In this document: positions 39,296 to 42,033 of the stretch, in pieces
Layout of the letters: each line of letters starts with the position of its first letter
Position numbering within the stretch: position 1 is the stretch's first letter
From: Streptomyces rapamycinicus NRRL 5491
GTDB taxonomy: Bacteria > Actinomycetota > Actinomycetes > Streptomycetales > Streptomycetaceae
Assembly (NCBI RefSeq): GCF_024298965.1
Contig: NZ_CP085193.1
Coordinates: forward strand, 7,254,001 to 7,318,000
DNA: 64,000 bases
Direction: 5' to 3'
Translations under genes and position numbers: made by a program
Notes under the pieces: model-generated
Told to the model about the DNA's origin: nothing
Seen by the model: the letters and a program-made list of their open reading frames with translations, nothing else
Database searches by the model: none

Positions 39296-39931
39296 ATGCA
39301 GCAACACACTGAGGGACACCCTCCGCACCCCCGCCGTCTCATCCTCGCCACCCGCAACGCCTACAAGATCACCGAGCTGCGCTCGATCCTGGGCGAGACC
39401 GGCCTCGACGTCGAACTCGTCGGCGCCGACGCCTATCCGGAGGTCCCGGACGTCAAGGAGACCGGCGTGACCTTCGCGGAGAACGCCCTCCTCAAGGCCC
39501 ACGCCCTGGCCCGGGCCACCGGCCACCCCGCCATCGCCGACGACTCCGGGCTGTGCGTGGACGTCCTCGGCGGCGCCCCCGGCATCTTCTCGGCCCGCTG
39601 GTCGGGCCGGCACGGCGACGACCGCGCCAACCTCGATCTGCTGCTGGCCCAGCTCGCCGACGTCCCCGACGAACACCGCGGCGCCCACTTCGCCTGCGTC
39701 GCCGCCCTCGCCCTCCCCGACGGCACCGAGCGCGCCGTCTCCGGCCGGCTCACGGGCACCCTCCGCCACGAGCCCGTGGGCGGCGGGGGGTTCGGCTACG
39801 ACCCGATCCTCCAGCCCCACGGCGAGACCCGCACCTGCGCCGAACTGGCCCCCGACGAGAAGAACGCCATCAGCCACCGCGGCAAGGCGTTCCGTGCCAT
39901 CGCCCCGGTCGTCCGCGAACTCCTGGGGTGA
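39296..39931 (+). CDS. rdgB: Non-canonical purine NTP pyrophosphatase (RdgB/HAM1)
   Basis: A 211-residue ITPase/XTPase that hydrolyses (d)ITP and XTP to their monophosphates, keeping deaminated purines out of nucleic acids. Motifs: LILATRNAYKITELRSIL, TFAENALLKAHAL, ADDSGLCVDVLGGAPGIFSARW, GGGFGYDPIL and the terminal SHRGKAF. Full length; it follows rph as in most actinobacteria. A perfect terminator lies 6 bp after its stop. Confidence 0.97.
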   Translation: MQQHTEGHPPHPRRLILATRNAYKITELRSILGETGLDVELVGADAYPEVPDVKETGVTFAENALLKAHALARATGHPAIADDSGLCVDVLGGAPGIFSARWSGRHGDDRANLDLLLAQLADVPDEHRGAHFACVAALALPDGTERAVSGRLTGTLRHEPVGGGGFGYDPILQPHGETRTCAELAPDEKNAISHRGKAFRAIAPVVRELLG

Positions 39932-39937
39932 CAAGCG

Positions 39938-39972
39938 GAGGGGCGCCTCCCTGTGTTTAGGAGGCGCCCCTC
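39938..39972. terminator. Bidirectional terminator between rdgB and tRNA-Leu
   Basis: Perfect 13-bp arms GAGGGGCGCCTCC / GGAGGCGCCCCTC around a 9-nt loop, directly between the rdgB stop and the 3' end of the minus-strand tRNA-Leu. Confidence 0.9.
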
Positions 39973-39978
39973 GCGATG

Positions 39979-40062
39979 TGCGGCCGGTGGGACTCGAACC
40001 CACACGGGATTTCTCCCACGGCGACCTAAACGCCGCGCGGCTGCCAATTTCGCCACGGCCGC
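39979..40062 (-). tRNA. tRNA-Leu (anticodon TAG)
   Basis: 84-nt class II tRNA on the minus strand. The acceptor GCGGCCG pairs with CGGCCGC, discriminator A73. The anticodon stem CGGCG/CGCCG encloses loop TTTAGGT with anticodon TAG (reads CTA, a rare codon in this genome). A long variable arm is present (GTGGGAGAAATCCCGTG region), and the T-loop is TTCGAGT. CCA is not encoded. Confidence 0.95.
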
Positions 40063-40116
40063 AGTCGCAGGACCATGCTACCGGGATGGCCTCTATGAGG
40101 ATATTGCAGTACGCGG

Positions 40117-41130
40117 CTACGCCGCAGTGCCAGCTCGCCTCTTCTGGACGCTCTGACGGTTCCGACACCATGTGTCGGTGATCGCGTGGCAGTTCGGGCA
40201 CAGGTACCGCAGATTCTCGGGGCGATTGTCGAGCCAGTCGCCGTTCACGTGATCAATCTGGAGCGTCATGCTCACTCCTTGCCACTGCCCAGTGTTGCCG
40301 CACCGCGCGCACCTGTACGGGCGGCCGATTTCATCCAGGGCTCTACGAAGCCGGGAGTGGTTGGTACGAGGAGAACCCGGCGGGCGGACCCGGAGCACCT
40401 CATCCGCCACGGGCTTCGACGCCACCGCTCGGGCCTGGCGCCGAGTGCGCCGCCTGAAGTGTGTGGTGTCCAGGCCCAATCGGACCGTCTGGCGGTGCAC
40501 ACGGCGGTGATTGGCATCGTTCACCGGTAGGCCCAGGGCGCGCACGACGTCCGCGTAACTCGTGCTGTCCGCGACGGCAGCGCGAAGGGGGCCTTCGGGG
40601 ATGGTGACGCGGGCGTGGGAGAAGTGCGAGGTGTCTATCCCGTGCTCGTTCAGCATGCGGCGCAGGGTGGCCCGTGACCGGCCGTCGTCGGAAACTCCCA
40701 GGAGTCGCGCGACGGACCGGACGCTGTCCCCAGAGAGGGCGGCTTCTCTCAGCTGTTCGCGGCTGAAGGGCAAGTCGATGTGCGGTCGGTTCAGCCCGGA
40801 GATGTGGCTGATATCGATGCTGGATGCCGCGATTCGTCTGCGGATGTGTGAAAGCGTCCCCGTCGCTGGGCGTGCTCCCAGCTTCTCGACCACTTCGCGC
40901 AACGTAGTCGACGTCGCCACGGCTTCCGCGATCGCCATGTCGGAGTACTTGCTCCACGGGCTGCGCTGCTTGAAGTGGCTGGTGTCGATGGCATGTGCTG
41001 CCGCGAGTTGCTGCAGGGCCCGACGTCTGCCACCGCTGGCCTTGACCTCTAGTAAGCGCATGAGTTCGGCCCAGCTCGATGACCGGGTCACCGCTTCGGC
41101 AAGGGCTTCGCGCGTGTATTCGGCTCGCAT
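40117..41130 (-). CDS. HNH endonuclease with four tandem DNA-binding-like modules
   Basis: A 337-residue protein. The C terminus is an HNH nuclease domain with two CxxC zinc knuckles (RCARCGN and LCPNCHA) and the catalytic block LQIDHVNGDWLDNRPENLRYLCPNCH. The preceding about 230 residues consist of four degenerate repeats of 50-60 residues, each with a helix-turn-helix-like segment and ending in a signature: IDTSHF, IDISHI, IDTSHF, LDTTHF. Such modules look like the sequence-recognition repeats of homing-type HNH enzymes. I chose the ATG at 41130 because TGAGGGGGA lies just before it. It stands alone between tRNA-Leu and a tRNA-Arg remnant; its codon usage is somewhat less extreme than its neighbours, consistent with acquisition. 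Confidence 0.85.
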   Translation of the reverse strand: MRAEYTREALAEAVTRSSSWAELMRLLEVKASGGRRRALQQLAAAHAIDTSHFKQRSPWSKYSDMAIAEAVATSTTLREVVEKLGARPATGTLSHIRRRIAASSIDISHISGLNRPHIDLPFSREQLREAALSGDSVRSVARLLGVSDDGRSRATLRRMLNEHGIDTSHFSHARVTIPEGPLRAAVADSTSYADVVRALGLPVNDANHRRVHRQTVRLGLDTTHFRRRTRRQARAVASKPVADEVLRVRPPGSPRTNHSRLRRALDEIGRPYRCARCGNTGQWQGVSMTLQIDHVNGDWLDNRPENLRYLCPNCHAITDTWCRNRQSVQKRRAGTAA

Positions 41131-41212
41131 GGTCCCCCTCACGGTGCGACCGTATGCCGCGTCATCGCACTGAGTAACGAATTGCTCGCCCATCGGTTAC
41201 GCGCGACAAGCC

Positions 41213-41365: not shown

Positions 41366-41418
41366 TGGTGCCCCGGCCGGACTCGAACCTGTGACACCCG
41401 GCTTGCGGCTTAGGAGAG
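41366..41418 (-). pseudogene. Decayed 3' half of a tRNA-Arg(CCT)-like gene; possible old attachment site
   Basis: On the minus strand the segment runs from an anticodon-loop-like CTCCTAAG through CAGGTTCGAGTCC to CCGGGGCACCA. This parallels the anticodon loop to CCA end of streptomycete tRNA-Arg(CCT). The T-stem has two mismatches, the variable region is enlarged, and the 5' half is absent. Truncation exactly at the anticodon loop is the pattern left at att sites of tRNA-targeting integrative elements. Confidence 0.45.
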
Positions 41419-41428
41419 CGGGTGTCAC
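41391..41428 (-). terminator. Hairpin over the bcp stop codon
   Basis: GTGACACCCG and CGGGTGTCAC form a perfect 10-bp stem with an 18-nt loop. The distal arm includes the bcp stop codon (TGA at 41427-41425), so this could end bcp transcription. Confidence 0.5.
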
Positions 41429-41892
41429 AGCCCCAGGTCTTTGATGATCTTGGCGACGTGGCCGGTGGCCTTCACGTTGTACAGGGCGCGCTCGACCTTG
41501 CCCTGCTCGTCCACGATGACGGTGGACCGGATCACGCCCGTCACCGTCTTGCCGTAGAGCTTCTTCTCGCCGAACGCGCCGTACGCCTCCAGGGTCTCCT
41601 TGGAGGGGTCGGCGAGCAGGGTGACCTTCAGATCCTCCTGGGCGCGGAACTTGGCCAGCTTCTCCGGCTTGTCGGGCGAGACGCCGATGACGTCGTAGCC
41701 GTGGCCGGAGAGGAACTCGAGGTTGTCGGTGAAGTCGCACGCCTGCTTGGTGCAGCCGGGAGTGAGGGCCGCGGGGTAGAAGTAGACGATCACCTTGCGG
41801 CCCGCGTGGTCGGCGAGCGAGACCTGCTTGCCGTCCGCGTCGGGGAGGGTGAAGGCGGGGGCGGTGTCGCCGGGCTGCAGTCGCTCGCTCAT
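41425..41892 (-). CDS. bcp: Thioredoxin-dependent thiol peroxidase (BCP, peroxiredoxin)
   Basis: A 155-residue atypical 2-Cys peroxiredoxin reducing H2O2 and alkyl hydroperoxides. The peroxidatic Cys47 lies in YPAALTPGCTKQACDF, with a likely resolving Cys52 five residues on. Start at 41892 (MSERLQPGDTAPAF) chosen by homology. The usual neighbour order (bcp divergent from a DUF3618 membrane protein) is kept. The stop lies in a hairpin. Confidence 0.96.
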   Translation of the reverse strand: MSERLQPGDTAPAFTLPDADGKQVSLADHAGRKVIVYFYPAALTPGCTKQACDFTDNLEFLSGHGYDVIGVSPDKPEKLAKFRAQEDLKVTLLADPSKETLEAYGAFGEKKLYGKTVTGVIRSTVIVDEQGKVERALYNVKATGHVAKIIKDLGL

Positions 41893-42033
41893 GGTCTGGT
41901 GCTCCTCGTGGCATCGGGGGTACACACCCGACATTAGCCAGCTTCCCGTCCGGGGGTGCCGTGGGGCGGTGAGGAGAGCGAGCTGACAGACTGTCCACTA
42001 CGAATCATCGAGACTGACGACGGAGGCAGCGCG

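Follow-up and report, generated by a model that had tools for sequence, protein, structure and literature searches.

Genes for tRNAs are normally among the most conserved in a genome; why, then, does one of them differ between close species of Streptomyces almost independently of the species tree, and why does it do so beside a dedicated nuclease? The question arises from a stretch of 64,000 nucleotides of the Streptomyces rapamycinicus NRRL 5491 chromosome (the window), where an HNH nuclease gene lies directly 5' of tRNA-Leu(UAG), between rdgB and bcp. The original prediction described the nuclease gene as flanked by a tRNA and a tRNA remnant, and both are present; the tRNA, mentioned there as a mere flank, is the key partner of the nuclease. 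The locus holds the following features, in window positions:

39296..39931, plus strand: rdgB, flanking gene
39929..40165, no strand assigned: segment comprising the rdgB stop, a terminator-like hairpin, the tRNA, the spacer and the last ~15 nuclease codons, for which blastn gives no match in the close relative G096
39978..40062, minus strand: tRNA-Leu(UAG), 85 nt, diverging from the canonical Streptomyces gene
40063..40116, minus strand: spacer of 54 bp from the nuclease stop to the tRNA, read directly
40117..41130, minus strand: HNH nuclease gene, 337 aa, ATG at 41130
40165..40359, minus strand: HNH domain, CxxC...DH...N...CxxCH, residues 258-322, matching Pfam HNH and HNH_3, with invariant residues
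40456..40608, minus strand: module 4, residues 175-225, repeat and predicted three-helix unit
40621..40773, minus strand: module 3, residues 120-170, repeat and predicted three-helix unit
40801..40953, minus strand: module 2, residues 60-110, repeat and predicted three-helix unit
40972..41124, minus strand: module 1, residues 3-53, predicted three-helix unit
41366..41421, minus strand: remnant of the 3' half of tRNA-Arg(CCU), att-like, matching the host gene at 81% over 57 nt
41425..41934, minus strand: bcp, flanking gene

In G096, similar tRNA-Arg(CCU)-like copies stand ~7.4 kb apart, of which the window retains one remnant; the insert of ~7.4 kb adjoins bcp, and its end reads by eye like the C-terminus of a tyrosine integrase.

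Among 121 Streptomyces genomes, a nuclease match (E<=1e-20) was found in 69, bcp in 119 and rdgB in 119, and by eye none of the nuclease matches listed for these genomes lies away from the rdgB/bcp neighbourhood. The interval was fetched from 114 genomes, the other seven having their flanks on separate contigs or ~15 kb apart, or one flank missing. Four of the fetched stretches hold no tRNA (110 tRNAs used) and two no bcp (112 tree rows, 109 of them with a tRNA type), and that of G109 was truncated towards bcp. Usually rdgB comes first and reads towards a tRNA-Leu(UAG), one or more nuclease genes and bcp, which are all on the opposite strand. The nuclease gene ends roughly 10-80 bp before the 5' end of the tRNA, and a -10-like element in the spacer looks, by eye, conserved across several alleles. 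Many genomes hold two nuclease genes in tandem, and a few have extra genes or a rearrangement between the nuclease and bcp. An intact nuclease is present at 59 of the 110 loci and a detectable one at 73, a patchy distribution with empty and decayed alleles. The label "genomic-island-like", given to the gene earlier, does not fit a family that is resident at this place in many species, and neither is the gene conserved in all streptomycetes within a neutral context, as it is patchy and the adjoining tRNA varies along with it.

The nuclease gene belongs to an ATG-started open reading frame of 358 aa at 40117-41193 on the minus strand, where the start was set at M23, at which homologues begin, giving the 337-aa protein. 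A homologue search found 1250 proteins, of which the best 120 are mostly ~330-345 aa long, and the organisms named among these are all Streptomyces. The four repeats ending in (I/L)D(T/I)(S/T)H(F/I) that had been read from the sequence are real: they span ~50 residues each and end at residues 53, 110, 170 and 225, and all six module pairs score at z 6.5-11.8 (0/1000 shuffles each). The zinc-knuckle HNH domain is likewise intact. HNH and HNH_3, at the C-terminus, are the only Pfam families above the cut-off, no GIY-YIG domain appears among the eight Pfam families at E<=1, and the HNH/zinc residues are invariant in 66 aligned sequences, the window protein included. The same motif is intact in 20/23 single and 80/82 tandem Streptomyces ORFs. 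The PHROG_10822 HNH endonuclease profile matches the protein in four stretches (E 2.9e-71). An AlphaFold2 model (mean pLDDT 84, pTM 0.38, 66 sequences in the alignment) predicts four units of three helices each, followed by the HNH domain, arranged as beads on a string, in agreement with the suggestion that the repeats are HTH-like, and their structural matches to HTH domains are weak. One module was counted in 77/80 viral and 31/32 other bacterial proteins, two in 39 of the 41 distal tandem genes of Streptomyces, one to three in the proximal tandem genes and four in all 11 full-length relatives of the window protein, a series that would fit the idea of a longer composite DNA target. Nuclease dN/dS is 0.12-0.19 in six of seven pairs and 0.44 in the remaining one, with frames that run stop to stop and include some upstream codons, and dS is 2.2-3.8 times that of the flanks and higher in 7/7 pairs, values above 1 being near saturation. 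These figures support purifying selection on the nuclease, together with exchange between lineages.

The tRNA was compared with the gene of G080 as the canonical reference. At loci where almost nothing is inserted (gap <170 bp), tRNA-Leu(UAG) is at least 0.93 identical to it in 10/10 cases. Fifteen of the 110 tRNAs reach this value, 13 of them in loci with a gap <400 bp and no nuclease, one beside an intact nuclease and one in another setting. The 95 that remain below it comprise 58 with an intact nuclease, 14 with fragments, 13 other cases and 10 short loci without a detectable nuclease, and fall into 18 clusters; 58 of the 59 intact-nuclease alleles are thus in this group, the exception being G041, where two intact nuclease genes adjoin a tRNA of 0.94 identity. 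None of the 59 intact-nuclease alleles shares a run longer than 27 nt with the canonical tRNA, and in 23 "empty" alleles the longest such run is 11-87 nt (median 34). The tRNA of G107 was called tRNA-Pro(AGG) by ARAGORN, probably a miscall, because its sequence belongs to tRNA-Leu(UAG) cluster 4. A length of 73-80 nt, without the long variable arm, is found in 39/110 tRNAs; a tRNA-Leu(CAA) at G000:C1:8775608-8775682 is also short (76 nt) and without that arm. A canonical match was obtained by BLAST in 54/121 genomes, one each, with seven candidates per genome scored, and the 65 tRNA matches of the window genome include tRNA-Leu(UAG) just once, as the divergent gene; the gene appears to be single-copy. 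In the four-module alleles (11 full-length), the tRNA changes cluster in the D arm, anticodon stem and variable arm, and because they concentrate there the target of the nuclease may lie in these parts, although constraint on the T arm and acceptor stem could produce the same pattern.

A tree of rdgB and bcp requires no fewer than 67 changes of tRNA type (mean 74.7 and minimum 68 over 200 shuffles), a weak phylogenetic signal that is close to random. When scored in four identity bands, tRNA-Leu(UAG) changes 43 times against a shuffled mean of 48 (minimum 41), whereas the control, tRNA-Leu(CAG), changes 7 times against 27.6 over 106 rows, its bands being best listed identities typed by hand and three of the 109 rows being omitted, with their match outside those listed. 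This control gene is present in 121/121 genomes, in 87 at >=96%; in Streptomyces it exists in a few clade-specific versions, 84-87% identical to that of the window genome. Among 17 pairs with flanks at least 94% identical, the tRNAs are at most 0.82 identical in 14 and identical in the other three (the value of 0.11 for G046/G083 is an alignment artefact, counted as divergent), and in those 14 pairs rdgB is 0.89-0.97 identical over its final 120 nt. The nearest relatives of the window hold three alleles, and that of G055 has no nuclease and a canonical-type tRNA (0.95). Between the window and G096, rdgB is 97% identical over its last 299 nt, and the match of G000 with G096 ends at the end of rdgB and restarts in the last codons of the nuclease. 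As the nuclease DNA of these two genomes is 92% identical and their tRNAs are very different, the nuclease-tRNA unit can be split. That the tRNA gene has been replaced between close relatives is well supported by these sequence comparisons.

The gene probably encodes a freestanding HNH homing endonuclease that constitutes, with the adjacent downstream tRNA-Leu(UAG), a mobile selfish cassette that replaces the host tRNA gene, as a natural form of cleave-and-rescue. The modules would recognise the host tRNA-Leu(UAG) gene and the HNH domain would cleave it, and repair from a donor allele would then bring in both the nuclease and a tRNA-Leu(UAG) that is divergent but functional and free of the target. 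As the gene appears to be single-copy, the carried tRNA would both rescue the cell and block re-cutting. Upon decay of the nuclease, the swapped tRNA would remain as a scar, and a new cassette could invade. A homing endonuclease that hits a needed gene requires a carrier allele that is functional and uncuttable, which introns and inteins achieve by splicing; in the present case a different working tRNA seems to serve as the carrier allele. Such a cassette would account for the location of the nuclease, the tRNA diversity beside intact copies, the near-invariance where there is no insert, the scars without a nuclease and the decayed copies.

It could be argued that tRNA-Leu(UAG) is swapped for some other reason, such as tRNA-cleaving toxins or phage factors, and that the HNH gene only hitch-hikes at a recombination-prone spot. 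This we consider unlikely, although several observations speak for it: many divergent tRNAs stand without a detectable nuclease, a nuclease can persist while the tRNA beside it changes (as in G000 and G096), and a sign test on independent pairs is not significant (median p 0.06 at the 0.93 cut with 6 pairs, and 0.375 for clusters with 12 pairs). The first of these is most evident in family f17 (30 loci given, of 41 genomes), where tRNA-Leu(UAG) lies within ~0.55 kb after bcp in 29/30 loci, two of them on the opposite strand, in very different types (22/29 short, 7/29 long), and a nuclease match is present in just 5/30, two of these weak. Because this family and the 10 short loci have divergent tRNAs mostly without a nuclease, nuclease loss must be frequent if the cassette reading holds. 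Against hitch-hiking stands the nearly complete link between nuclease and tRNA among the best chromosomal and viral loci. When the 84,980 genomes of genome_contigs were scanned with a profile headed by the nuclease of a Citrobacter phage, at least 507 chromosomal loci were confirmed, and in 77 of the best 80 the next same-strand tRNA within 1.3 kb is tRNA-Leu(UAG), in Streptomyces, Nonomuraea, Microbispora, Streptosporangium, Rhodococcus, Nocardioides, Longispora and an Anaerolineales assembly. The remaining three are one locus with no downstream tRNA and two cyanobacterial loci, where the next tRNA is Leu(AAG) and Gln; the cyanobacterial relatives sit in arrays of 27 and 25 tRNA genes. In a class sample of 197 genomes, 12/12 nuclease loci outside Streptomyces are 5' of tRNA-Leu, 11 of them UAG. 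Genes for tRNAs occur within 2 kb in 78 of the best 80 viral loci, against 3/80 random viral loci (80 listed of 120, with contig size not matched to the nuclease loci). A same-strand tRNA at -40..+150 of the nuclease stop is found in 40/80 viral loci, 20 of the 40 being Leu, in comparison with 99/562 other long ORFs of the same loci. Moreover, proximal nuclease and tRNA similarity remain correlated once species distance is removed (partial r 0.32, 0/1000 permutations, n=67), and at the sequence level their co-variation is well supported. Where the HNH domain is at least 60% identical to that of the window, the tRNA is short in 2/17 cases, both borderline (60-61%), and with the remaining nucleases, below 60%, in 32/50. 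No clear phage donor of the divergent tRNAs was found, which, like the canonical-like tRNA beside the intact nucleases of G041, speaks against the cassette.

A second alternative, which seems improbable, is that of a domesticated defence factor directed at the tRNA-Leu genes of phages that enter the cell, with the divergence of the host tRNA serving to avoid self-cutting. The purifying selection on the nuclease would suit this function, as would the Leu-rich tRNA arrays beside its viral relatives (127/586 tRNAs near the best 80 viral loci). However, phages carry the same kind of nuclease in their own arrays (3/3 annotated phages inspected), and in hosts the nuclease is patchy and decaying. In addition, PADLOC matches it best with a homing endonuclease model and finds ZorE similarity over the HNH domain only, and with the Zorya ZorE equivalog the window protein scores 11 bits against a cut-off of 600. 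The original prediction had proposed a homing or otherwise self-propagating nuclease, or one for defence; the first part is favoured by the tree, the close pairs, the tRNA linkage and the modules, and for the second no evidence was found.

Alternatively, the protein might attack the tRNA itself, as RNA, and the linked tRNA would be the immune version of a toxin-antidote pair. That the tRNA of intact alleles differs in the D arm, anticodon stem and variable arm would agree with this mechanism, which is nonetheless very unlikely: the repeats are predicted three-helix units whose structural resemblance to HTH domains is weak, and the HNH families matched by the nuclease are known as DNA nucleases.

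Relaxed vertical evolution, where a rarely used tRNA drifts beside an old resident gene, has in its favour that the leucine codon CUA is rare in high-GC genomes, but it is disfavoured to the point of being barely credible by the near-invariance of the tRNA where almost nothing is inserted, by its nearly random changes on the tree and by a divergence that exceeds that of the flanks in 14/17 close pairs. Weakest of all is the idea of a cargo of an integrase-type island in tRNA-Leu, which the att-like tRNA-Arg remnants near bcp and the 7.4 kb insert of G096 might evoke, since the nuclease is on the 5' side of tRNA-Leu, the remnants are of tRNA-Arg and on the far side, and the interval of 1.5 kb holds by eye no other plausible gene.

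Beyond this locus, the cassette reading can be extended, more tentatively and at somewhat less than even chance, to a cleave-and-rescue drive that crosses phyla, in which HNH nucleases dedicated to tRNA-Leu(UAG) would have repeatedly replaced it in actinomycete chromosomes, with switches from class II to class-I-like tRNAs, and in Streptomyces the modules for recognition would have increased from one to four. Should the nuclease be responsible, there would be a natural precedent for cleave-and-rescue drives, the class switching of tRNA-Leu in actinomycetes would be explained, and a family with one to four modules could be useful for DNA recognition by repeat number.

Among known systems, SegB is a GIY-YIG nuclease and differs in this from the HNH protein of the window. 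SegB from phages T4 and T6 is a freestanding homing endonuclease of the tRNA region that promotes the inheritance or amplification of this region (PMC13096335, where Brok-Volchanskaya 2008 is cited), and its gene adjoins tRNA genes, like that of the window nuclease; it belongs to phage genomes, no isotype preference is reported in the section consulted, and the system is not a chromosomal single-tRNA replacement. HNH genes inside the tRNA clusters of mycobacteria and their phages have been suggested to spread tRNA genes (PMC5966550, PMC6409571, PMC6582537). Nucleases in such arrays, together with SegB, are already in print (also PMC10448857, PMC13096335). The mycobacterial and phage arrays are accessory and add tRNAs, whereas in the window system it is one chromosomal tRNA gene, apparently present once, that is replaced, and a single isoacceptor predominates; the likeness of their HNH proteins to that of the window is one of gene context. 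The PHROG_10822 profile links the window protein with viral relatives, but most of these bear one module instead of four. At the level of titles and abstract beginnings in the open-licence literature, replacement of a single chromosomal tRNA gene by such a nuclease was not found. In synthetic cleave-and-rescue drives, a nuclease is coupled to a modified but working version of the gene that it targets, as is proposed for the window cassette, where an altered copy of the tRNA, the presumed target, is linked to the nuclease and appears to have no second copy in the genome. Those drives are synthetic, while the cassette is natural, with a tRNA target, an HNH protein and putative cleavage.
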